Source of the DNA: a virus
IMG/VR virus record: IMGVR_UViG_3300000243_000004
Span: 1-41,904 of that record
Strand: one strand, 5' to 3'
Length of the DNA stretch: 41,904 bases
Positions 2,022 to 15,482 of this stretch are shown here, one piece after another; position 1 is the stretch's first letter, and the number at the start of each line of letters is the position of its first letter. The translations under genes and the position numbers were made by a program. Below the pieces are notes generated by a model that worked only from the letters and a program-made list of their open reading frames with translations, was not told the origin of the DNA and searched no databases.

Positions 2022-3737
2022 TTAACCATCACAAGAGATGCAATCACTCATTCTGGATCCCAAGTCTCCCTTAATTACACTATCAGTTCTTAAATAATAT
2101 AATGTCTTTATGCCCAACTTCCACGCTTCTAAATGGACTTGATTAATCCATTTAGGTGAATCATTAACATCAAATGATAAATTTAAAGATTGGGTTTGGT
2201 CAATGTAACGCTGTCTAATAGCAGCTTGACGTACTAATTCTAATTGGTTTATTTCAGGGAATGTTAAAAATAATTCCTTTTCCTCAGGTGTTAAAATATT
2301 ATCCGGTAGTCCCTGTACAGAACCATCCTGTTCTAACATTACATCCCACCACTTATCTTTATCTTCTCCTTTTTCAATTAATATTTTCTGTAATTCTTTA
2401 TTCTTTCTAATAAATGTTCCTTTAGCACCATTAAATGTGTAGATATTTGCGGGTAAAGGTTCAATACCTGCTGAAATACCACCTACAATTACTGAATTTG
2501 ATACTGTTGGGGCAACTGCTAATAAGTGAGTATTTCTCATACCTGTTCCTCTACACCATAAAGGTTCTCCATATTCTAAAGCTAAGGCCATAGACGCTTT
2601 TTCAGCTTTTCCTCTAATATCGGAAAATATATTTTTAGTGTGAGATGTTGAGGCAATAGAATTAAATGGTAATCCTTTTTGTTGTAAAAATGAATGCCAA
2701 CCCATTACACCTAAACCTAAAGCACGACCTTTACGAGCATGATTATATGTTCTTTCTAATGATGTTTTACCTGCTGATTTATCAATAAATTCTTGCATTA
2801 CCCCATCTAGAAACCAAGTAGCTAATTCAACTGTATCTGTATCTTTCCATTCATCATACTTTGATAAATTTAAAGAAGATAAACAACAAATAAATGAATG
2901 TTCTTCATCTGTAAATAAAGTAATTTCAGAACAAATATTAGTCATACTAACCTCTAAATTGTTTAACCTATAAGCAATTGGGTTATCTTTATTAACATTA
3001 TCCTTATACATTATATAAGGTTCACCTGTTTCCATTCTGGATTTTAAAATAGTAGCCCATTTATTCATTGATTCTGGGTCTCTTGCCTCTAATTTTCTCA
3101 TAAATGAATCACCTACAACAACACATTGGTGTAAATTAAGACATTGTCTATTAGGATCTCCTTTTGGTCTACGAATTTGTAAAAACTCATCAATGTCTCC
3201 ATGTTCAATATCTAAATTAACAGATGCTGCTCCTCTTCTTACATTCCCTTGGTTAGTTGCTATAATAGATGAATCAAATATTTTAGCCCACGGCACTACA
3301 CCTTCACTTTTACCATTTCCTGTAATTCCTTCTCCACGTTCTCTAATGCGAGATAACGAAATACCTACACCACCACCGGATGCTGTTAACTTCATGAGTT
3401 CCGCGTTAGTTAAACCGATTCCACGTATTGAATCAGGTGTATCAACACCAAAACACGAAATAGGTAAACCTCTATCGGTCCCCATATTTGATAAAACAGG
3501 TGATGCTAAACCTAACCAACCATTCCACATTATTTTGAAGAATTTACTTGCTAGTTCTGGTTTTTTTAATCTTGTAGCTGCGGCATTTGATACCCTTCTA
3601 TAAGCTGTTTTTACAGTTTCGTTAGGTAATAAATAACCTTTAGAAATTGTCGCTAATGAAATCTCATCCATCCATTCTGGGTATTGTTTTCCAGCTTCCC
3701 AATTACTATAATCTACTTGTAGTGCGTTATTTTCCAT
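2022..3737 (-). CDS. nrdA: Ribonucleotide reductase class I, large subunit, short form
   Basis: It reduces ribonucleoside diphosphates to deoxyribonucleotides together with NrdB. The 571 residues carry the class I active site: redox cysteines at C95 (PISCFG) and C284 (FICCLS), the N267-x-C269-x-E271 triad, the radical-transfer pair Y547-Y548 and a C-terminal C566-x-x-C569. E. coli NrdA has 761 residues. The region before the first active-site cysteine is short here, so the N-terminal ATP-cone that senses dATP is absent. The enzyme should therefore lack overall-activity inhibition, which would suit a phage that needs dNTPs in excess. It lies downstream of nrdB with one small gene between. Confidence 0.96.
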   Translation of the reverse strand: MENNALQVDYSNWEAGKQYPEWMDEISLATISKGYLLPNETVKTAYRRVSNAAATRLKKPELASKFFKIMWNGWLGLASPVLSNMGTDRGLPISCFGVDTPDSIRGIGLTNAELMKLTASGGGVGISLSRIRERGEGITGNGKSEGVVPWAKIFDSSIIATNQGNVRRGAASVNLDIEHGDIDEFLQIRRPKGDPNRQCLNLHQCVVVGDSFMRKLEARDPESMNKWATILKSRMETGEPYIMYKDNVNKDNPIAYRLNNLEVSMTNICSEITLFTDEEHSFICCLSSLNLSKYDEWKDTDTVELATWFLDGVMQEFIDKSAGKTSLERTYNHARKGRALGLGVMGWHSFLQQKGLPFNSIASTSHTKNIFSDIRGKAEKASMALALEYGEPLWCRGTGMRNTHLLAVAPTVSNSVIVGGISAGIEPLPANIYTFNGAKGTFIRKNKELQKILIEKGEDKDKWWDVMLEQDGSVQGLPDNILTPEEKELFLTFPEINQLELVRQAAIRQRYIDQTQSLNLSFDVNDSPKWINQVHLEAWKLGIKTLYYLRTDSVIKGDLGSRMSDCISCDG

Positions 3738-3745
3738 TTAGGTTC

Positions 3746-4045
3746 CTATTTTTTAAATGGTTTTTCATCACCCTTTTCATCGAAATACTTGTCCCTTGTT
3801 TTTTTAGATTCTACCCTAATATTTTCGTGTAATTTATTAAAAGTTTCTAACATTTTAACATTTTTGTACCCATTTTCCTGGATTTTCACCAATAGTCGAT
3901 CTACATTATTAAATTGGTTTTCTGTTTCCTGTTTTATTGCCTCCTTTATTATAGACAAAACTTTTCTTGTATCTGGTTCTAATTCTGCATTTTCTAAAAT
4001 TATTAATATCTCTTCTACTTGTGATAAATTTAATTCTAATGTCAT
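3746..4045 (-). CDS. Small uncharacterised helical protein between nrdB and nrdA
   Basis: This 99-residue protein starts at the ATG at 4043-4045 (MTLELNLSQVEEI). The longer frame begins with TTG and overlaps nrdB, so I rejected it. The leader before this ATG is A/C-rich with no Shine-Dalgarno. The sequence is charged and helical with no cysteine pair, so it is not the glutaredoxin or thioredoxin often found beside phage nrd genes. The C-terminus is lysine-rich (GDEKPFKK). It is probably co-transcribed with nrdB and nrdA. I do not recognise its family. Confidence 0.6.
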   Translation of the reverse strand: MTLELNLSQVEEILIILENAELEPDTRKVLSIIKEAIKQETENQFNNVDRLLVKIQENGYKNVKMLETFNKLHENIRVESKKTRDKYFDEKGDEKPFKK

Positions 4046-4080
4046 AATTTGTTTGTTTTTGGTTTGTTTGTGTTTTGTTT

Positions 4081-5067
4081 TTAAAATAAATCGTTTACGT
4101 CCCAATTTTGGACTCCTTTACTATAATTTGTTACTCTATTTGCGAAAAAATCTGTATGTTGTTTACCTGCTGATAAGCTATCAAACCATTTCATTCTTTT
4201 TATTGCGTCTTGGTCTATACCATTAACGATAGCACCATATCCTAAATCACCCATTTTAGTGTTTACTCTATGTTTGATAAATGATACTAAATCATATTTT
4301 GGACATCCTTTTAAATCCCCCATTTCATACACTTTATCAATAAAATCTAATTCTAATTTTAAAGATAGTAATGCAGCTTCTTCAATATCTGCTTTTAATT
4401 CAGGTGTATTAAATTCCGGATGTTCTTCTAATAAGGTTCTAAATAACCAACATCCAGCATTAGAATGTAATGATTCATCTCTAATACTCCACTCAACTAT
4501 TTGACCTACACCTTTAAGCTTATTATCTAATTTAAAGGACAATAAAACTGCAAATGATGAAAATAAATTTACACCTTCTGTAAATGCTGAAAATATAGCT
4601 AATGATTTAGCTCTTTCATGCCAATTTGCTTCACCATTATGAGAATCTCTAACTTCAGTTAATGCTGATATTTTAGCCATTGTAGCTTCATCTTCTAGGA
4701 ACTCACTAAAATTGTCTAATCCTAATTCTTCATTTAGCAAAGAATAGGCTTCAGCGTGAATTGTTTCAAACGCTGCAAAAGTAACAGCCATTTTAATTAC
4801 TTCCGGCTTTCTAAACCATTTTGTAACTAAAGTTGACCAGTAATCATTTACTACAGTTTCTGTTTGAGCAAACCCCTTTAAAATAGTACCAATTATATTT
4901 TTTTCGTTTTCTGTTAGATTTTGTTTCCAATCATTAACATCACTCATCATTGGAACTTCTGTGTGTAACCAATGTGCTTGTTGTTGTTGTAACCAAAAAT
5001 CAGATGCTTCTTGATACTCGAACGGTTTATAAACAATACGTTCTTTTAATAGTGAGGTTTTTGCCAT
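4081..5067 (-). CDS. nrdB: Ribonucleotide reductase class I, small (radical) subunit
   Basis: This is the ferritin-like, 328-residue subunit that generates the radical used by NrdA. By position-matching to E. coli NrdB, the metal ligands are E70, E101, H104, E164, E198 and H201, and the radical tyrosine is Y108 (FETIHAEAY). The first ligand is Glu where E. coli has Asp84, while the tyrosine is kept. Chlamydial class Ic has Glu there but lacks the tyrosine. The C-terminus (WDVNDLF) ends in the acidic/aromatic tail expected to dock with NrdA. The gene lies between the helicase gene and a small unknown gene. Confidence 0.96.
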   Translation of the reverse strand: MAKTSLLKERIVYKPFEYQEASDFWLQQQQAHWLHTEVPMMSDVNDWKQNLTENEKNIIGTILKGFAQTETVVNDYWSTLVTKWFRKPEVIKMAVTFAAFETIHAEAYSLLNEELGLDNFSEFLEDEATMAKISALTEVRDSHNGEANWHERAKSLAIFSAFTEGVNLFSSFAVLLSFKLDNKLKGVGQIVEWSIRDESLHSNAGCWLFRTLLEEHPEFNTPELKADIEEAALLSLKLELDFIDKVYEMGDLKGCPKYDLVSFIKHRVNTKMGDLGYGAIVNGIDQDAIKRMKWFDSLSAGKQHTDFFANRVTNYSKGVQNWDVNDLF

Positions 5068-5089: not shown

Positions 5090-6478
5090 TTAAGTTTTTA
5101 GATCAAAAAAAGCAGAATTGTATTTCTCTGCTAATTTCTTTTTTGTTTGAAAATCAGTGTCATCTAGACTATTAGATTTAGTACTAGGAGCCCATGTTTT
5201 CTCTTCATTATCACCTGATGGTGAATAGTTTTGGGATACTTCAAAATGTCCCGTACTTGTATCTGCTACTACACCATATGTAATACCATCTTGACCATAA
5301 CGATTTTTCATAATATGAAACCTTCCAGTTCCATTTACTTTGTCTTCCTTTTTACGGGATAAAGACATACAAAAGTCAGTAATCATCAGTTTGTCGTAAG
5401 AACCTGCTGCCTTATCTCCTTCTATAATATCATCATTTGCACCTGCTCTATTAACTTGAGATACTGACCAAATAGGTATGTTAAGTGTTCTAGCTAATCC
5501 CTTTGTACTAACATAAATATCATCAATTTCATCTTTTCGTTCACGATTTTGTTTTTTTGATGAAAGTAAGTCAACATAATCAATTATAACTAAATCAGCT
5601 TTCATTCCCATTCCTTCACATTTTTTAATATGTGATTCAATTGTGGACACAGTTGCGCGTCCTGTGGGGAATTCTTTAATTATTAGTTTACCTGGTAAGT
5701 CAGGAATTAGTTCCATTGCTTTAGGTTTTAGTTTTGCACTATCACTAACATCAATACCTGTAAAGAAAGCATCGTATCTTTTTCCAACATAATCTTCACC
5801 AAGCTCTAAGGTATAATGTAAAACTGTGTAACCACATCTTACAGCATGTCCTCCTAATGCTACTAATGACCAAGATTTACCACCTCCTGGGTTACCAAAT
5901 ATAAGACCAAAATCTCCACTTCCAAGTCCACCCTGTAGTATATTGTTGACCAAATCCCATGGAGTTGGTATAGTTTTTCTTGTATTTTCTCTATAACGGT
6001 CTTCAATGTCTTTAAAATATTCATGTCCTAAGTTTTTATCTTGTCCTGCTTTTAGGGCATTGTCCACTAACCCTCTTATTGCTTCAAAATCACCTGCTTT
6101 TAGTAAATCAACGGATGTCATTAAAGCTCTTTTTAATTGTTGATTTTTACAAAAATTAGTAAATTCTTCTTGTACATACTCTAAATCCTCATCTGAAGCT
6201 ACATAAGCTTGTTTTAATTGTTCCTTTAATGAAATTTGAAGTACATCATTATCTATTTTTTTTAATTCAATTTTTAACGTTTCTAAATTAGGGGTAGTAT
6301 GGTATTTATCATAATATTTTAGGATCTCTTTAATAATCCATTTATGAGCACTATTTTCAAAATATTCCTCACTAATAATATCGTGTATATTAATTAAAAA
6401 CTCCTTATGAGTTAAAAGTGATGAAATCGCTTTTATTTGAAAATCTGTTCCATATTGATTAAGCGTGTGCAGTGTCAT
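5090..6478 (-). CDS. gp41: Replicative DNA helicase, DnaB/T4 gp41-like
   Basis: This hexameric 5'-3' helicase unwinds DNA ahead of the replication fork. The 462 residues comprise an N-terminal helical domain (about 1-150) and a RecA-like motor. The motor shows Walker A at 195-202 (GNPGGGKS), Walker B ending at D300 (LVIIDYVDLL), and the sensor motif SVSQVNR. The length is close to T4 gp41 (475). The gene stands in a run of recombination and replication genes, between the 5' nuclease and nrdB. No primase is recognisable in the window, so a gp61 homologue would have to be elsewhere. Confidence 0.93.
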   Translation of the reverse strand: MTLHTLNQYGTDFQIKAISSLLTHKEFLINIHDIISEEYFENSAHKWIIKEILKYYDKYHTTPNLETLKIELKKIDNDVLQISLKEQLKQAYVASDEDLEYVQEEFTNFCKNQQLKRALMTSVDLLKAGDFEAIRGLVDNALKAGQDKNLGHEYFKDIEDRYRENTRKTIPTPWDLVNNILQGGLGSGDFGLIFGNPGGGKSWSLVALGGHAVRCGYTVLHYTLELGEDYVGKRYDAFFTGIDVSDSAKLKPKAMELIPDLPGKLIIKEFPTGRATVSTIESHIKKCEGMGMKADLVIIDYVDLLSSKKQNRERKDEIDDIYVSTKGLARTLNIPIWSVSQVNRAGANDDIIEGDKAAGSYDKLMITDFCMSLSRKKEDKVNGTGRFHIMKNRYGQDGITYGVVADTSTGHFEVSQNYSPSGDNEEKTWAPSTKSNSLDDTDFQTKKKLAEKYNSAFFDLKT

Positions 6479-6495: not shown

Positions 6496-7536
6496 TTATT
6501 GTTTGTATACTGGGAATTTTGTAAATATATCTTTAATCCACATATCTAAATTCCTTATCATCCCTCCAAGTTTATCTTCATTATACAATGAAATAAACAT
6601 TTCAGCGTTTAAATCCGGTAAATCTTCATCAATTAAATCACTAACGTGTTTTTTACCTCTTTCATCTATTAATGGGATACTTAAATCCATAACCTTATAA
6701 TTAGTTTCAATTCGATCTTTGTCCTGCAATATACGTGAATATACAATATGATCCTTGAATTTCCTAGCACATATGTCAAAAATGTCATCTAAAGTTAATT
6801 CGTGAGTTTTCAATTCAGGAAATTTTTTAAATATACCCTTTTCACCTAAACCTTTAATACCTTTAACATTATCTGAATTATCACCTAATAAAGTTTTATA
6901 TAAAATAAAATTTGAGGGTAATAAACCAAACTTTTGTTCTACTACTTGTGGAGTATAATATTCTTTCTCCATTGGTCTATATACAATAATTTTATCAGTT
7001 ACTAGTTGTAGGAAATCCTTATCACTAGATACTATAAAACAAGTTGAATTATGTCTTTCTACTAGTTTTTCAGCTAACACTGCTATAACATCATCCGCTT
7101 CAACTTTATCGAGTATAGTGGTTTTAACAGGTAATAGTTTTAAATATTGAATTATACGTACAATTTGGTCGATTTTTGAATCATGTTCCTCTTCAATATT
7201 ATCAAACGCTTCCCAATTGGTAATCCTTTGTAAATTTCTTGTTCCTTTGTACTCGGAGAGCAAGTTCTTACGATTTATCGTTGAACCTGCTCCGTCGAAT
7301 ACTACATAAACAGATGTTGGATTTGTTTGTCTAATCATAGCACCTAAAGAACGGAAAAACCCACCTAATCCTCCAATATGTACCCCATCAGGATTTACCA
7401 TATTCATCATAGCAAAATTCCTAAAAAATAGATTTAAACCATCTAGGATTAATACTCTATCGTGTCGTTTTAAAACAGGCTCTTCCCCTTGCTCCTGAAC
7501 TGTATCCAGGAGTTTAAATAAATCTTTGTGCTTCAT
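6496..7536 (-). CDS. rnh: 5'-3' exonuclease, RNase H/FEN family (T4 rnh-like)
   Basis: Flap endonucleases of this family remove RNA primers from lagging-strand fragments. The 346 residues contain the expected acidic metal ligands: D32 (LILDGLNLF), D81 (VVFDG), E146/D148/D149 (EADD), D172 and D174 (SSDKDF), and D219/D222 (LLGDNSDN). The helix-two-turn-helix motif GIKGLGEKG follows at 226-234. T4 RNase H has 305 residues; the extra length here is mostly a short N-terminal extension. The neighbours are uvsX upstream and the helicase downstream. Confidence 0.92.
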   Translation of the reverse strand: MKHKDLFKLLDTVQEQGEEPVLKRHDRVLILDGLNLFFRNFAMMNMVNPDGVHIGGLGGFFRSLGAMIRQTNPTSVYVVFDGAGSTINRKNLLSEYKGTRNLQRITNWEAFDNIEEEHDSKIDQIVRIIQYLKLLPVKTTILDKVEADDVIAVLAEKLVERHNSTCFIVSSDKDFLQLVTDKIIVYRPMEKEYYTPQVVEQKFGLLPSNFILYKTLLGDNSDNVKGIKGLGEKGIFKKFPELKTHELTLDDIFDICARKFKDHIVYSRILQDKDRIETNYKVMDLSIPLIDERGKKHVSDLIDEDLPDLNAEMFISLYNEDKLGGMIRNLDMWIKDIFTKFPVYKQ

Positions 7537-7545
7537 GTTTGGTTT

Positions 7546-8622
7546 TTAAATGTCTGCTTGGTCGAACAGAACAGGTGTTACATCATCATCATCTTCTACA
7601 ATCTCGAAAGTTCCTCCTCCTAGGATTTTAGACCATTCGTCAGCATGTGCCTTCTTGTAGTTGTTTTTGTCTTTATCTGTGTCTTCGATAAATCCATGTG
7701 TGGTCATAACAATTTTACCTCTTGACTGAATACCATTAACGTGGTTCTTATCAATTTGTAAATTAGTACGTTTACCCCATTCAACTTGCTTACCACCTTT
7801 AATTGCTTTAATTTTAGATGTTCCAGCGTTTGAAACGTTTCCAAATGTAACTACAAATGTAGCATCATACCACATTGCCATTCCACCTTTGTTCATCATC
7901 TTTGGTTGACCCATAGGTGATTCTGCTTTTGCTGTCCATACTTTATTAATAGCAATTAATGTGTTAGTATATGGTGCTGATTCTTTACGAGACATTACAA
8001 TACTTTGGTTAACTGTATTACCAAATTGTGTTGACATTGCACCCGCATTCCATTCATTGTTATTTTTCAGTTTTTCAACTGACATAGCACAGGGAATTGA
8101 TCCAATTGAATCCCAGAAAAACGCTAGATCATAAGGTAAGTTACCCTTTTTCTGCTCATTCTGTAAATCCATAATAAAGGCAGCAACATCTTCAATAGTA
8201 TGTACTGTTTCTCTATCAACGTAAATAAAATTACCATCGTAATCAAGTACTTCACCCGTATCTTTATCTTTAATAAGATTAACTTGTAACCCCATTTGGG
8301 CTGCATGTTCCCAGTTCCATTTCATCTCTGTAATGATAAAAACAGGTAGTATCCCCATTTTTTGAGCTTCAACCGCGGCTTCTAGTAAAGCGGTAGTTTT
8401 ACCAGTATCAGAATGTCCTCTAAGTAATGAAATATGTCCCATTGGTATACCTGGTACTCCTGCTATTTCTTGAAAGGCAGGGGATAATGGTATCCACTTT
8501 TGGTCCTTAAATTTGACGTTTTTATCTAAACCTTTAGAAGACTTAAATTTATTTAAATCAAATTTGCTCTTAATCTCGGCAGACACTGCCGCCGAGAGAG
8601 ACTTTGATATTTTTTTCGCCAT
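7546..8622 (-). CDS. uvsX: UvsX/RecA-like recombinase
   Basis: It forms filaments on single-stranded DNA and drives strand exchange, which in T4-type phages also initiates recombination-dependent replication. The 358 residues have Walker A at 69-76 (GHSDTGKT) and Walker B ending at D171 (LAFFWDSIGS). The C-terminus is acidic (VEDDDDV). Length is close to T4 UvsX (391). The gene begins two bases after the gp32-like gene stops, so the two are translated from one message. No UvsY or UvsW is evident in the window. Confidence 0.93.
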   Translation of the reverse strand: MAKKISKSLSAAVSAEIKSKFDLNKFKSSKGLDKNVKFKDQKWIPLSPAFQEIAGVPGIPMGHISLLRGHSDTGKTTALLEAAVEAQKMGILPVFIITEMKWNWEHAAQMGLQVNLIKDKDTGEVLDYDGNFIYVDRETVHTIEDVAAFIMDLQNEQKKGNLPYDLAFFWDSIGSIPCAMSVEKLKNNNEWNAGAMSTQFGNTVNQSIVMSRKESAPYTNTLIAINKVWTAKAESPMGQPKMMNKGGMAMWYDATFVVTFGNVSNAGTSKIKAIKGGKQVEWGKRTNLQIDKNHVNGIQSRGKIVMTTHGFIEDTDKDKNNYKKAHADEWSKILGGGTFEIVEDDDDVTPVLFDQADI

Positions 8623-8624
8623 AT

Positions 8625-9464
8625 TTAGAAAGGAAGATCATCTTTTGGAGTTGTTGAATCTTCAGGAAATAAAGCATCAAATTGATCTGCTTTGTTTTTC
8701 TTAACATTACTAGTATCTAAACTAAAGTTACTAGGTTTTGCTGGTTCTGATTTTGTAGGGAAAGCATTTTCACTTACATTATCTGATTCTGTTTCTTCTG
8801 GTGCTAGCCATTTTTCTAGAGCAGATTTCATTTCATCAAATGAATAGATTTTAAATAATCCTTCTTTAGGATTTGGTTGCTCATTTGTCCAAGTTTCTAC
8901 TTGAGTAGCATCTTCACTTAAGGGTGATGTTTTTAATCTAACACGTACTGATGATTTGTTATAAGGAGTACCTGTTGATTCTGGTCCTACTGTTTCTACT
9001 GTAAGGTCTCTACCACCTACTATATCTGTGTAATCTCCGATTTCATCATCAACAGCTAGTGCTAATAATTCTTCATATACTTGTTTGCCAAATTGCCATA
9101 ATCTAACACCTTTATCTTCTTCTCCACGTACTACTACAGGAACGAAAATACGGTTTTTAGCATCTAACTTTTTAGCTAATACATAATTTTCTTTAGTATA
9201 CTCTTCTCTAAGCTTTTCTGCAAAGAGAGCAATTGGGTCTTTATCCCCAAAATTAGTTGGAGAAATCATTACCTTATTGGTAATACCATAATAGAACTTT
9301 AATTCTGTAAATGGGTTGGAAGTATCATACGTAGAGGGTACGATTCTAATTTGTTGTTTACCTACTGTAGGTCTCCAAAAAATGGTTGTGTAATCAATTT
9401 TTCCACCAGCTTGTGGTTTCGATTGGAGTGTATCCAATTTTGCTTTTAATGCATTTAAATCCAT
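8625..9464 (-). CDS. gp32: Single-stranded DNA-binding protein, T4 gp32-like
   Basis: It coats single-stranded DNA during replication and recombination. The 279 residues follow gp32 architecture: a short N-terminal basic region, a central OB-type core (starting near IFWRPTVGKQQIRIVPS), then a low-complexity acidic C-terminal tail. The gp32 assignment also rests on its position directly before uvsX. The extreme C-terminus is DDLPF, which closely resembles the DDIPF tip of bacterial SSB used to recruit partner proteins. A CGTATATT promoter-like motif lies 41 bases before its ATG. Confidence 0.85.
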   Translation of the reverse strand: MDLNALKAKLDTLQSKPQAGGKIDYTTIFWRPTVGKQQIRIVPSTYDTSNPFTELKFYYGITNKVMISPTNFGDKDPIALFAEKLREEYTKENYVLAKKLDAKNRIFVPVVVRGEEDKGVRLWQFGKQVYEELLALAVDDEIGDYTDIVGGRDLTVETVGPESTGTPYNKSSVRVRLKTSPLSEDATQVETWTNEQPNPKEGLFKIYSFDEMKSALEKWLAPEETESDNVSENAFPTKSEPAKPSNFSLDTSNVKKNKADQFDALFPEDSTTPKDDLPF

Positions 9465-9535: not shown

Positions 9536-10003
9536 TTATACTTCGATTATTTTATATATTTTTGTGTTTAATTGACTTAAATCATTATGTTGTGTAAGTA
9601 AAACACAATTTCTATAATGTTGCCAATCTATCTGGAATTTAGTATCTACTACACCACCATTTAACTTCTTAATTAACTCATTAAGGGCGTTTATAGTATA
9701 TAAAGTATTAGATTCTTTCTTTCTATGTACCAATATAGTGTTTTCTGGAATTGTTTGTACATTTCCTTGGTCTACATTATAAGTTACAACGTATTCATCT
9801 TTACCCACGATCTCGAGGACAAACATTTTATTGTATATAATGGTGTATCTGCTTGTAATCTCTTCTAATAAAGAATCTAAATTCTCTAAATTTGTGAAGG
9901 TACAAAATAACTTATTGTTCAAATCTCCTATGTTTTGGAATGACGTTATAACATCATAGTTCGTGTTATACGTATTTGGAGAATTATTTAAAATCGTAGT
10001 CAT
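9536..10003 (-). CDS. Uncharacterised protein between polymerase and gp32 genes
   Basis: I do not recognise this 155-residue protein. It has no signal peptide or membrane helix, and is mixed alpha/beta, with a C-terminal part rich in Leu and polar residues (INALNELIKKLNGG, then DWQHYRNCVLL). Its start overlaps the 3' end of the polymerase-like gene by 20 bases, and a GAAGG lies just before the ATG, hinting at translational coupling. Because of its position it may act with the polymerase or the SSB, but the sequence shows no motif for that. Confidence 0.65.
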   Translation of the reverse strand: MTTILNNSPNTYNTNYDVITSFQNIGDLNNKLFCTFTNLENLDSLLEEITSRYTIIYNKMFVLEIVGKDEYVVTYNVDQGNVQTIPENTILVHRKKESNTLYTINALNELIKKLNGGVVDTKFQIDWQHYRNCVLLTQHNDLSQLNTKIYKIIEV

Positions 10004-11261
10004 AACCTTCTTTTGTTTTTGTATTCAGTTTATACTTAGTAAATATATTTTTTATATCTTCTATTACTTCTTTTTCACTTTCATCCCAGTCAATTAAGAA
10101 CGAATCGTAAGTATATAATACCAATTGAGACTTTTTATTTCTCAATACCTTTATCATATCCCATAATATACGAACGTTCATTGACGTCTCCAAATTTTGT
10201 AGCAAGTAATTAAAAAGTTTTTGTGGATTCATATCCTCCAAATTTTCCTTTTTATATACAAAATTAGAAATCGGACACGTTATCTCCCCTTCGCTTTCAA
10301 ATTTACTCCAGAGATCTTTTACGTATATATCAATTTTCTTAAAAAATTCCAGGTGTTTGTATTCCTTGAATACTCCTCCGTATAGTTGCTTAAATGTTAA
10401 TTCCTTAGATTTGGCGTAGTCAACTTTATATAAAGCTTGTAAATGGCTATGAATATCAACAGAGGGGAAATTATAATCAATGAGGCGACAAGACAGGCTA
10501 GGATGATAAGCGCTAATATCAATGTCAATAAATACCCCATTGCTTGGGATAAAGCTTTTTCTACATCCGTTTTTGTGGGAAAGTGCTGCATAGTTTACGT
10601 TTTTAAATTTATTTGAGGGTCGTGTTGTGGTTGTCCGAAGGTTGTACTGAGTGTATGCTCGTTCACCATCAATTTTATGGAAGTGCTCTTCGAAGGTTGG
10701 TTTGTGTATTTGTATTCCATTTCGTTCGAGGTAGTTGAACACCAAGGATACTTTAGTATTAAAGAATTCATCATATTTAGTTTTTTCTCTGTTAATATTC
10801 GCTTTTAGATCTTCAAAAATGTGTTCGCACAATTCATAATGTTTAACAATCGGGATAATCGTGTTTACACAAATTTCATCCTTATGTTGGTTGTAAAATA
10901 TTTCGTGTGCTTTGGTAGTTGGTCGTATATACGTATGAGGTGGTGCGGTTATGTCATAAAGAGTTTTGTTTGGAAAATAATGTAATATTTCCTTCTTATC
11001 GCGACAATACAATTTTTCAAATTTGTTTATTAACCTTTCAATGCTTGTCTTATACGTGATTAACTCATTAGTAACTTCACTATGATGTATACCCACCATA
11101 AAGCCTTTAGTTGCTTCAAGTGGTCTAATATACATTAAACTTACGTGATTTAGTACGGGGTGTATAGTATCATTATAAGGGATTACTTCGATGAAAGCCT
11201 CCTTATAACTACTATTAATTAGAACATCTAACTGTTCCTTATTTTCTATCAACCAGTACAT
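9984..11261 (-). CDS. Short divergent family-A DNA polymerase-like protein
   Basis: The C-terminal half of this 425-residue protein carries, in order, the family-A polymerase landmarks. These are TTTTRPSN...NVNYAAL (about 210-226, cf. TGRLSS...NLQNIP), motif A with D248 (DIDISAYHPSL), motif B K286-x3-F290-x3-Y294-G295, a Q-x-helix (LLQNLETSMNVRIL) and motif C TYDS at 384-387. The position of the usual motif A glutamate is His253. The N-terminal 200 residues are short and show no intact DEDD exonuclease. T4-type phages normally use a family-B enzyme (gp43), which is not in this window. Replicative role is inferred from neighbours gp32, uvsX and the helicase. It could also be an accessory polymerase. 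Confidence 0.75.
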   Translation of the reverse strand: MYWLIENKEQLDVLINSSYKEAFIEVIPYNDTIHPVLNHVSLMYIRPLEATKGFMVGIHHSEVTNELITYKTSIERLINKFEKLYCRDKKEILHYFPNKTLYDITAPPHTYIRPTTKAHEIFYNQHKDEICVNTIIPIVKHYELCEHIFEDLKANINREKTKYDEFFNTKVSLVFNYLERNGIQIHKPTFEEHFHKIDGERAYTQYNLRTTTTRPSNKFKNVNYAALSHKNGCRKSFIPSNGVFIDIDISAYHPSLSCRLIDYNFPSVDIHSHLQALYKVDYAKSKELTFKQLYGGVFKEYKHLEFFKKIDIYVKDLWSKFESEGEITCPISNFVYKKENLEDMNPQKLFNYLLQNLETSMNVRILWDMIKVLRNKKSQLVLYTYDSFLIDWDESEKEVIEDIKNIFTKYKLNTKTKEGYDYDFK

Positions 11262-11314: not shown

Positions 11315-12154
11315 TTAGTAGTTTTTTCTTATTGAAGTACCTACCTCCCTACTTATAGTAGGAGGTATTATATCTTTAGCAATTTCTTCACCTTCAAATG
11401 GGATTAAGACTCTATGTGGAGATGCAGAATGAAATTTACCTTCCATAATTACTCCCCTAGTTGAATATACATGATAATTACCAGCATAATTTTCATTTGT
11501 ATCTTGAACCTTTAATTCTCCTCCTTTAGTTGTATAATATTCATTTTTTAAAGGGCGATAATATTTTAAATACCTACCTTTAAAGAAATTTGAAAACCCT
11601 CTAATATTTTTTTCTTTTTCGTATAGTAGAGCTATATTTCTATTAATATCATAAACCTCTATTGGTTTACCTACTAATATCCAATCTATTTTAATAGCAG
11701 TATATAACTGAAATGGTACAATTGGATTTTGATTAAAGAAATTATTATAGGTTAGTTGGTTAACTTCTAAGTAATTATTATTAACATTGTGTTTTAAAAA
11801 ATATCTTTGATATTCTCCAGTCTCATATTCTCCTTCAGTTGGGAAAACTATATTTCCTTTTGGGGTGGTAATTGAAATGGGAGATGATGATGTTGATAAA
11901 CTATATCCTATAGGAACTTCTGTTTGGGGAAAAGTAGGATCGCTATCAGAAGGAAGTGATGGTGAATTTGGGGTGTCTTCAAATAATCTTACTAATTGTT
12001 GGTTATTACCATCTTGGGGGGTTTTACCAGTATAATATTTACCATCAGATGTTTTAAAATAAGACCCAACATAGGATTCACCGGTATCTACTAATTGGTA
12101 TTCTTTCCCATTAGTAGATAAATTAGTAGTTAATTGTGATTTTGGGTAGTACAT
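11315..12154 (-). CDS. Uncharacterised baseplate/tail-region protein with an internal repeat
   Basis: This 279-residue protein closes the tail gene block. Residues about 16-59 and 211-254 can be aligned without gaps over 44 positions, sharing a G-E...DT-x-E-x-Y-x-G-x-Y...G...GK pattern. It therefore has two copies of a small, probably beta-rich module flanking a central domain. There is no signal peptide or membrane helix. Its position after the hub-like gene suggests a baseplate or fibre-attachment component. I do not recognise a named family. Confidence 0.6.
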   Translation of the reverse strand: MYYPKSQLTTNLSTNGKEYQLVDTGESYVGSYFKTSDGKYYTGKTPQDGNNQQLVRLFEDTPNSPSLPSDSDPTFPQTEVPIGYSLSTSSSPISITTPKGNIVFPTEGEYETGEYQRYFLKHNVNNNYLEVNQLTYNNFFNQNPIVPFQLYTAIKIDWILVGKPIEVYDINRNIALLYEKEKNIRGFSNFFKGRYLKYYRPLKNEYYTTKGGELKVQDTNENYAGNYHVYSTRGVIMEGKFHSASPHRVLIPFEGEEIAKDIIPPTISREVGTSIRKNY

Positions 12155-12170
12155 TGTTTAATTTATATTT

Positions 12171-15100
12171 TTAGATATTATCCCATGTTTTTTTAGCTGA
12201 TTGGAAAAATGATAATTTAGTTTTATATGTAGGAGAGTCTGAGGTAAAATTTTCTTTTCCTTCAGGGGACCACCATTTATTAATATAAGTTGTAGTCCAA
12301 TTATAAGGATTTGATGTGAAACCTTTAGCACTAACCCTATTCTGCATAAATTTTAGGAAGTTTTCATCGTTTTCAAAAGCTGCAAATTCTCTTAAGCTTA
12401 CTGCATCTTCTCTAGAGAATCTAGCTACTATGAGTTTACTTGATATACTATCTTTACTACCTCCCCAAACTCCACTATCTGTTTGGACTCCAGAATAATT
12501 ATTACCCCCTGCTGAATTAAAGGATCCATTACTTTTACTAGCTTCAGACCATAGTATAGCAAATATAGCAAGTCCTAAATCTTCACCCGCAATTCTAAGT
12601 AATATTTCTTTTGCTTTAGCATAAGTTAATTTTGAAGAGGGAAATGAAGTTAATACTGGGAGTTCTTCATAACGGCTATTACGTGCTGTTTGTTTTTTTA
12701 AATTCTCTTCTGATATAGAAAAAATATAAGGAGTAATTTCGTTTATTTTAGGTACTACTATTGTACCTAAAGATGTTCCCCAATTATTATTAGATATTTC
12801 ATGGTTTACTTTTGTAATTATAAATTTTAAGGAGGTACTGTATGCCTTAGGTAAAAATCTTTGATTAACATCTAGGGCATTAAATATTTTAATCCCCGAT
12901 AACCCATCAATAGTTAAATTTAAATCCATAGGAATAAACCCTATAGTATTTGAAGGAACTAATTTATTCCCCTTTTCATATACTTGAGTGTTGATTTGGT
13001 TTATAAAACCCTTAAATAAAGAACTTCCTATTTTATAAAAATCACTATTAAAATAAAAGTATAAAGGTTCCTCAATAGTTCTTCCATTTAATTTTCCACC
13101 AAGGGCATTAATTAACCATTGTATATAACTTTGAATATTTAAATCTTCAGGTAAATCATCTTTTTCTCTTTTAGCAAGTGTTTTAATGTAACTAGTTTTT
13201 GCTTCAAGAAAATATTCGGCCCATGTAACATTACTGTATGTTCTTTTAGTAACAGGACATCTTTCGTCTATATCTCTTGTACCCGTACCCTTATAAGTTC
13301 CTACATAAGAGATTTCTTGTTTTCTAAAAGTTGAACCACCAATAATTTCTATGTTTTTTAAAGAAAGAAAATCAGGACCATAGAAAAGATCAACATCCGC
13401 TTTTTCAAAATGCTCATACATTTTTTGAACTTGTTCAGAAGTGAAAGGATAAAATTCGGGTTGGATTTTTGGAGGTGTAAGTTCAGCATCCTCAGGATCA
13501 TCATAATCAACAGCATACGCATCCTTTAATCCTTCAGTCCATTTAGAAAAAGACGTCCCATCATAATTTTTAGTGGATTCATTTTGTGCTGTTGCTCCAA
13601 TAGTAATCATACTTGCCAATTCTGGGCCTATTTTAGTTCTAAATCCAAAATCTCTTACAAAATTTGATGTTGATTTTGTATAATCACTATAGTTATACCC
13701 ATAAATTTCAAAGGAGGTGGGAGTTTCTACAAATCTACACCCAAAGTTTGTAGACTTTTCTATTCCGGGGATAGGGTTTTGATCTATTATTTTAATTACG
13801 TTATCATCTTGTATAATTGGTTCTAATTTATTAAGGTTTCCTAAAGAATCATTTATACCATCACATATACTTGATAAAAACTTAAAAAGGGTGATATTAC
13901 CATCTTTAGTATTTTTTTCTAAAATAGTTGAAACAAAATCATAATTAAGATAAATATTCATAATATCCCCATATATTATATTGGTTTCTTCTTCTTGAAT
14001 TGTAAAATTTTTCAATTTAGCAAATGCCTTATAAAAGTTTTTAACACCTACTTTTTTATCTTTAAGTTCCTGGGGGTTTGATATATTTAGTACTGAAGTA
14101 AAAGCAGGTTTAATTAAACATATTTTAGGATTAAAGGAAACTTGGTTAATAAAAGTAGAGCATATACTTTCAGTACTTGTATCAAAAGTAAGAACTTTAT
14201 CCGTATTAATAGAAGGGATGCAATATTTTTCTAATTTTGCTAGTAACTCACTAAAAGTTAAATAATAAGTATATTTGTTACTATCTATTCCCGTAGGGCG
14301 GAATTGGTCATCTTCATTACTTTTGTATTTTTTTCTTATTACGTAATCTATTTCTGTTCCAGATGTATCTGTTTCTTTTAAATTAGAAAATAAAGAAAAA
14401 TAATTCGTTTGGTTACCACTCCAAAAGTCAGGTTTACTTGAAGCTATATCGTTAAATAAATTAAGGGATAAGGTAGAAGATCCTGCATTAGTTATAATAG
14501 GACTTGATACAGTCTTTAGTTGAGCGGTTTGTGCATTACCCTTTTCAAGGGTTTTCTTTAAAGATGCCGCAGATACCAGATCTGATGGTAGTTTTACTTT
14601 TAGGGATTCTATAACATCCCCTATAGTAATTAATTTTAAAGTTATATTATAAGTACCATCGGGTTGAAAATTCCAATCAAAGTTAACTACTTTCCCTAAA
14701 AACCCATCATAGTTAGAACTATATTTTCTTTGATAAGTGCTAATTTCTTTAATTATTTCATTAAAGTTATTCTCATCATTAAACCACATATCTTCGATTA
14801 ATGTATTTTCAACAAATTTTAAAGTTCCACTATTGTCTACGTATTTACTCCACCCCCATTCTAATAACATAGTATACCCTAACTTTAAGTATAAAAGTTC
14901 TATTAACTCAAATTGAAATTTATTATAAGCCTTTAATTCTATTGTTGCTTCTCGAATTGAACCCCTATTTTTACAGTCGATTTTAGCTGAGATTAAACCC
15001 GGGCTAGGTACAAGACCAAAATCTGTCCCTCCTAAACCATAACTACTGTTATTCCATAAGCTATTAGTTTTAGATACTCCAGACCTATTAATATAAGTGT

Positions 15101-15482
15101 TACCCCCATCTGGTGATAATTCTGAAAGGGTGTTAAATAGAATAGCTTTTCTTGCTAATTGGTTTCCTGTAAATTTACTTGTGTTATCTAACCCTATATC
15201 TCTTAATTTTTGTTCTCCTGCGCTGATATTTGATTCTAATTCTTCAAATTTTCCGGTAGTAGGATTGTAAGTAGGAATTGATTCTTCATTATACTCTTCA
15301 CCACATTTTTCACTTACTGTTTGACCTATAACTCTTACGGATGAAGCAAGTTTTAACCAAGCATTATTATTACTTAATACACTAATATCAGATTTATTTC
15401 TGGTTTGTTTCCCATGTAAATACTGTCGTATTGAAATTTGACTTGAGACACTATTATTAATTGATTCTCCTATTATACTCAT
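12171..15482 (-). CDS. Large baseplate hub-like protein with C-terminal lysozyme-like domain
   Basis: At 1103 residues this is the longest gene here. The N-terminal part (about 160-230) has a segment rich in aromatic and charged residues (PSPGLISAKIDCKNRGSI, then LELLYLKLGYT-like text), a pattern I associate with hub proteins of marine T4-like phages. The last 160 residues resemble a glucosaminidase/transglycosylase fold, with a candidate catalytic Glu near residue 980 (ILWSEAS), then GGNNYSGVQ and VWGG. T4 carries a hub lysozyme in gp5, so a cell-wall-piercing role is plausible. Fold and catalysis are inferred from motifs only. It lies between the LysM protein and the duplicated-module protein. 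Confidence 0.65.
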   Translation of the reverse strand: MSIIGESINNSVSSQISIRQYLHGKQTRNKSDISVLSNNNAWLKLASSVRVIGQTVSEKCGEEYNEESIPTYNPTTGKFEELESNISAGEQKLRDIGLDNTSKFTGNQLARKAILFNTLSELSPDGGNTYINRSGVSKTNSLWNNSSYGLGGTDFGLVPSPGLISAKIDCKNRGSIREATIELKAYNKFQFELIELLYLKLGYTMLLEWGWSKYVDNSGTLKFVENTLIEDMWFNDENNFNEIIKEISTYQRKYSSNYDGFLGKVVNFDWNFQPDGTYNITLKLITIGDVIESLKVKLPSDLVSAASLKKTLEKGNAQTAQLKTVSSPIITNAGSSTLSLNLFNDIASSKPDFWSGNQTNYFSLFSNLKETDTSGTEIDYVIRKKYKSNEDDQFRPTGIDSNKYTYYLTFSELLAKLEKYCIPSINTDKVLTFDTSTESICSTFINQVSFNPKICLIKPAFTSVLNISNPQELKDKKVGVKNFYKAFAKLKNFTIQEEETNIIYGDIMNIYLNYDFVSTILEKNTKDGNITLFKFLSSICDGINDSLGNLNKLEPIIQDDNVIKIIDQNPIPGIEKSTNFGCRFVETPTSFEIYGYNYSDYTKSTSNFVRDFGFRTKIGPELASMITIGATAQNESTKNYDGTSFSKWTEGLKDAYAVDYDDPEDAELTPPKIQPEFYPFTSEQVQKMYEHFEKADVDLFYGPDFLSLKNIEIIGGSTFRKQEISYVGTYKGTGTRDIDERCPVTKRTYSNVTWAEYFLEAKTSYIKTLAKREKDDLPEDLNIQSYIQWLINALGGKLNGRTIEEPLYFYFNSDFYKIGSSLFKGFINQINTQVYEKGNKLVPSNTIGFIPMDLNLTIDGLSGIKIFNALDVNQRFLPKAYSTSLKFIITKVNHEISNNNWGTSLGTIVVPKINEITPYIFSISEENLKKQTARNSRYEELPVLTSFPSSKLTYAKAKEILLRIAGEDLGLAIFAILWSEASKSNGSFNSAGGNNYSGVQTDSGVWGGSKDSISSKLIVARFSREDAVSLREFAAFENDENFLKFMQNRVSAKGFTSNPYNWTTTYINKWWSPEGKENFTSDSPTYKTKLSFFQSAKKTWDNI

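Follow-up and report, generated by a model that had tools for sequence, protein, structure and literature searches.

The 425-residue protein encoded on the minus strand at positions 9984–11261 of the window (the whole stretch analyzed, a linear 41.9-kb virus fragment) belongs to divPolA1, an already published group of divergent family A DNA polymerases, and displays every divPolA1 feature that can be looked for within the window. We consider it likely that divPolA1 is a catalytically competent, proofreading-dead and short-thumbed family A polymerase that these phages carry in addition to their regular polymerase. This reading draws on the computed Pol I fold, the active-site residues, the lost exonuclease acids, purifying selection, the position of the gene within its cluster and the regular polymerases of relatives. 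To the known class we add an invariant histidine, a near-invariant tyrosine, a conserved partner gene (orf155), the scale of the family and, in the clade of the window, a split family B polymerase (PolB). Described so far from 14 genomes, the class here grows to more than 300 copies, which fall into three clades and share a single gene order.

divPolA1 was defined on Flavobacterium phage vB_FspM_immuto (immuto) and its relatives, 14 phages of 155–190 kb (Yutin et al. 2024, Virol J 21:200, PMC11348598). In these phages the exonuclease aspartates are replaced, the thumb is truncated and the palm residues are kept, and divPolA1 is always accompanied by a regular DNA polymerase of family A, B or C (PMC11348598). 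The window derives from a marine T4-like phage, probably one with a flavobacterial host. Apart from the replication genes it is T4-like, encoding a terminase, portal, head maturation protease, major capsid protein, sheath and tube, and contigs bearing divPolA1 have been binned in Flavobacteriales, Winogradskyella and Flavobacteriaceae metagenome-assembled genomes (MAGs), a weak hint at the host.

Fold and family of the polymerase

The earlier note on this DNA had described a 425-residue open reading frame (ORF) at these coordinates with family A motifs A, B and C and a TGRxSN-like motif in the correct order, all of which is borne out by sequence, Protein Data Bank (PDB) profile and fold. On the minus strand, the TxxRPSN motif (TTTTRPSNKF, residues 210–219) is followed by motif A (DIDISAYHPS, residues 246–255; 10497–10526), motif B (KELTFKQLYGG, residues 286–296, within a motif B region of residues 282–296; 10374–10418) and motif C (LYTYDSFL, residues 382–389; 10095–10118). 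These supply the features that define family A, namely the motif A aspartate (D248, Klenow D705), the K-x3-F-x3-YG pattern of motif B (K286, F290 and Y294, equivalent to K758, F762 and Y766) and the motif C aspartate (D386, Klenow D882). The glutamate usual in motif A (E710) and the arginine usual in motif B (R754) are not present; these residues are usual rather than fold-defining, and the published divPolA1 is still filed under family A.

Taken alone, the window protein has no meaningful Pfam match. PF00476 is matched by 25 of 108 relatives (best 7e-13), and a profile of 108 homologues searched against the PDB returned 23 matches, all of them family A polymerases (Taq, Klenow; best E 0.016). 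Structure prediction, proposed in the earlier note as a check, yielded an AlphaFold2 model (pLDDT 92.6, pTM 0.90) with a palm-fingers-thumb fold of the Pol I type; the top Foldseek matches in the PDB are all Pol I-type (E down to 4e-17), and Klenow 1kfd aligns with the model at a TM of 0.77. Profile and fold together exclude a family B or RNA polymerase identity. No RNA polymerase is among the 23 PDB matches, and the T7-type RNA polymerase motif A (DxSxxGxQH) is not found, the divPolA1 motif A being mostly Dx[SD][AG][YF]H. Comparison of divPolA1 with the regular phage PolA by hhalign, in which the second profile was shallow, gave no significant score; for the motif register we accordingly rely on the PDB profile matches and the model.

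Secondary structure in the N-terminal ~130 residues resembles that of an exonuclease, and a TM of 0.77 over the length of the query takes more than the polymerase part alone; together these indicate a degenerate exonuclease domain. The position of Klenow E357 is I27 in the window and is acidic in none of the homologues, acidity at positions 25 and 91 is lost in the Mel-JY01-like clade (clade C), and position 143 is Glu instead of Asp in nearly all homologues. With the register set by eye and from the model, in agreement with Yutin et al., the catalytic acids of the exonuclease appear to be gone and the proofreading site dead. The earlier remark that the protein lacks a visible exonuclease domain is therefore right as to a working exonuclease but not as to the domain itself, which is degenerate rather than absent. 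The stretch between E143 (at the ExoIII site) and R214 measures 71 residues, compared with 167 in Klenow numbering (D501–R668), and considering also the helices of the model we place the thumb region at ~96 residues shorter than that of Klenow.

Among phage records, tblastn matched the protein to immuto gp001 (35% identity over 96% of its length, E 9e-72). This similarity, the replaced exonuclease acids, the truncated thumb and the ordered replication genes downstream mark the window protein as divPolA1. Separate scans confirmed 104 relatives with the first query, at least 569 with an alignment query, 312 with immuto and 109 with Mel-JY01, in overlapping sets, and the loci that were fetched contain 304 divPolA1 ORFs. 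The family falls into three clades: a marine clade that holds the window (~54–91% identity within it), an immuto-like clade (~35%) and a Mel-JY01-like clade (~25%).

Active-site residues and the motif A histidine

Residues were counted in 233 distinct divPolA1 sequences of at least 370 aa, drawn from the 304 ORFs. R214, N217, D248, H253, K286 and Q355 are invariant (233/233), F290 and Y294 are kept in 232, and D386 is found in 232, with a gap in the remaining sequence. Compared with seven relatives, divPolA1 of the window shows a dN/dS of 0.14–0.20, and the gene is under purifying selection.

A histidine in place of the motif A glutamate, singled out in the earlier note at residue 253, is confirmed by alignment of the 108-homologue profile with PDB sequences, in which His253 stands opposite the motif A glutamate of Taq, equivalent to Klenow E710. 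It is common to the whole family and not peculiar to the window. A tyrosine (Y282 in the window) occupies the R754 site in 230 of the 233 sequences. The regular PolA of immuto-type phages, which serves as an internal control, retains the motif A glutamate together with every exonuclease residue. Glu710 of Pol I is highly conserved and blocks ribonucleotides (PMC9324360), making its replacement noteworthy, and the text of the divPolA1 paper (PMC11348598) mentions neither the His and Tyr changes nor a steric-gate effect. Because histidine is bulky and may itself still act as a gate, one can only hypothesize from the sequence that His253 alters rNTP selection. The conserved Glu-to-His and Arg-to-Tyr changes in the nucleotide site could also lower or redirect activity.

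At locus L068 (6132–7421), as well as in L069, a divPolA1 variant diverges sharply past about residue 245, carrying F290L, Y294N and G295S and retaining His253. It is possibly a recombinant or an active site in decay.

Gene order and regular polymerases in relatives

The setting of the gene in a T4-like replication cluster with gp32, uvsX, FEN and helicase (DnaB) genes, recognized in the earlier note, was confirmed. Downstream of divPolA1, and likewise on the minus strand, lie orf155 (9536–10003), a 155-aa conserved partner whose gene shares 20 bases with the 3′ end of the polymerase gene, a gp32-like single-strand DNA-binding protein (8625–9464), a UvsX/RecA-like recombinase (7546–8622), a 5′–3′ exonuclease/FEN (6496–7536), a DnaB-like replicative helicase (phrog_19; 5090–6478) and both subunits of ribonucleotide reductase (2022–5067; small subunit 4081–5067, large subunit 2022–3737). 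Two genes upstream on the same strand, of 279 and 1103 aa (11315–15482), mark the border of the structural module and were found in 168 of 168 loci with room for them.

In the 89 loci that extend 9.5 kb or more downstream of divPolA1, orf155, gp32, uvsX and DnaB are present in all and FEN in 88. Gene order is kept within each clade (39/39, 23/23 and 26–27/27) at inter-clade protein identities of 25–36%. The order divPolA1-orf155-gp32-uvsX-FEN-DnaB is essentially fixed, though the kind of regular polymerase varies by clade, and the cluster is thus the steadier of the two. Such stability favors a nonredundant role for divPolA1 at the fork or in recombination-dependent replication. Homologues of orf155 occur in 282 loci, with a highly conserved core (VHRKKESNTLYTINALNELI) and a dN/dS of 0.04–0.10, below that of divPolA1; the protein has no Pfam, PHROG or PDB fold match. 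A 484-kb jumbo phage (LR756508; locus L315) carries a divPolA1-orf155-gp32-FEN-DnaB cluster in which uvsX was not detected. It also has a family C polymerase match and, ~18–25 kb downstream, PolB matches in two ORFs.

For each relative contig we tabulated how far it extends past divPolA1 on the downstream side and how far away a regular polymerase lies. A regular DNA polymerase is present in all 25 relatives sequenced far enough (6 in the marine, 10 in the immuto and 9 in the Mel-JY01 clade). It is a PolB 21–32 kb away in 6/6 marine contigs with >33 kb downstream, a full PolA 37–54 kb away in 10/10 immuto-clade contigs with >46 kb, and a PolB 20–32 kb away in 9/9 Mel-JY01-clade contigs with >32 kb. 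Several shorter marine contigs also have PolB, from 19.7 kb on; none was found in marine contigs L120 and L069, whose 27 and 30 kb downstream fall within the observed range of distances. Family C polymerases were found in no relative except LR756508 and two MAG bins, where they are presumably the host's.

Two ORFs, divided between motifs B and C, encode the marine-clade PolB; its exonuclease motifs are intact, and the halves together span phrog_262 almost completely (78–567 and 563–851). The search for gp43 suggested in the earlier note thus succeeded in close relatives, as this split gp43-like PolB, but not in the window, where the absence of a regular polymerase is uninformative since the window stops 10 kb downstream of divPolA1 and that of relatives lies 20–54 kb downstream. 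Of the two roles offered there, replacement of gp43 is not supported, given a regular polymerase in 25/25 adequate relatives and a split gp43-like PolB ~20–32 kb away in close relatives; an accessory enzyme is the better option. The split gp43-like PolB was seen in L144 (463–3137), L091, L094, L142, L143, L146, L338 and L339, some relatives of the Mel-JY01 clade included; its halves overlap by 16 bases in L144 and elsewhere have small ORFs between them, one of which is cytidylyltransferase-like.

The regular PolA of immuto-type phages retains the exonuclease motifs DTE, NASFD and YAAAD. A separate DnaG-type primase occurs in contigs of all three clades, immuto included, ruling out the idea of a missing primase. 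The T4-type clamp PF02916 was found in 0 of 16 relatives, and a clamp-like ORF that follows the split PolB of L147 was dropped as it had no Pfam, PHROG or PDB support.

Proposed role and comparison with known systems

We infer that divPolA1 most likely serves as an accessory polymerase without proofreading, used to fill gaps or in recombination-primed synthesis, which would make short, distributive DNA tracts with gp32, UvsX, FEN and the helicase. Such tracts would fill gaps behind primer removal by FEN or extend recombination intermediates made by UvsX, and genome copying would be left to the regular polymerase, in the marine clade the split gp43-like PolB. A FEN and a Klenow-like enzyme in one operon resemble a divided Pol I, an analogy that suggests primer removal and gap filling by the pair. 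The gene surroundings of divPolA1 vary less than those of the regular polymerase, which could speak for a more central role than the word accessory implies.

The same constancy counts in favor of a rival reading, in which divPolA1 has superseded gp43 as the main replicative enzyme and the distant regular polymerase is the auxiliary. Its place beside gp32, uvsX, FEN and DnaB is fixed in all clades, the regular polymerase varies among them (split B, A, B), and this contrast of contexts was noted by Yutin et al. (PMC11348598). We regard this as rather unlikely, however, given that divPolA1 appears to lack proofreading and has a short thumb, whereas the regular polymerases retain exonuclease and polymerase motifs, the marine-clade one with a full T4 gp43-type complement. 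Distinctly unlikely is a primer-making or rNTP-tolerant enzyme in which the histidine relaxes sugar selection and mixed RNA/DNA primers are laid or extended, perhaps with orf155. His253 (233/233) and the tyrosine at the R754 site (230/233) fit such an enzyme, as the otherwise highly conserved Pol I glutamate excludes ribonucleotides (PMC9324360), but all three clades have a DnaG-type primase, the bulky histidine may itself act as a gate, F290 and Y294 are retained, and no primase-like domain is present. A long shot is that divPolA1 and orf155 form a two-subunit, rNTP-tolerant polymerase with a rebuilt sugar/triphosphate site, a Pol alpha-like enzyme for primer extension or handover; if true, this would explain why divPolA1 stays fixed while the main polymerase swaps families.

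A translesion or repair polymerase acting at blocked forks might be suited by the lost exonuclease, by reduced fingers and thumb and by the presence of a separate regular polymerase, but the gene is constantly linked to the core genes of replication and recombination, which makes this role very improbable. Two unusual conserved active-site changes might even be read as signs of a catalytically dead scaffold or regulator of polymerase descent, which is scarcely credible with nucleotidyl-transfer residues invariant or nearly so in 233 sequences and a dN/dS of 0.14–0.20. Since divPolA1 stays while the main polymerase differs by clade, it can now be tested directly, also with immuto as a cultured phage, why two polymerases are kept.

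divPolA1 shares its fold, motifs A, B and C and TxxRPSN with Klenow, Bst, Taq and the apicoplast DNA polymerase I, and differs from the Klenow-type enzymes in a His at E710, a Tyr at both R754 and H881, a shorter thumb and a putatively dead exonuclease. With T4 it has in common the type of replication cluster (gp32, UvsX, FEN/RNase H, helicase), whereas T4 gp43 is of the unrelated family B, and a split gp43-like enzyme exists separately in close relatives of the window. Rhodothermus phage RM378 (Far-T4) has homologues of the gp17, gp20, gp23, sheath, FEN and DnaB of the window but no divPolA1 (best profile E 0.19). Its p024, annotated as a DNA polymerase, reads as the 3′–5′ exonuclease part of a family B enzyme (FDIE, WNGYQFDYPYL, YNAVD), so RM378 is not a precedent for a split family A polymerase; p092, encoded far from p024, is annotated as similar to DNA polymerase, making this another divided polymerase in a Far-T4 phage. 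divPolA2 of barbaviruses is, like divPolA1, a divergent extra PolA beside a regular polymerase, but by its description it is set apart by another N-terminal domain and a variable gene neighborhood (PMC11348598). The nearest known system remains the divPolA1 of immuto, which the window protein matches in sequence, size, dead exonuclease, short thumb, palm residues and neighbors and, to judge by its relatives, probably also in having a regular polymerase alongside; the window differs in belonging to a marine sister clade whose regular polymerase is a split PolB, which does not contradict its membership.
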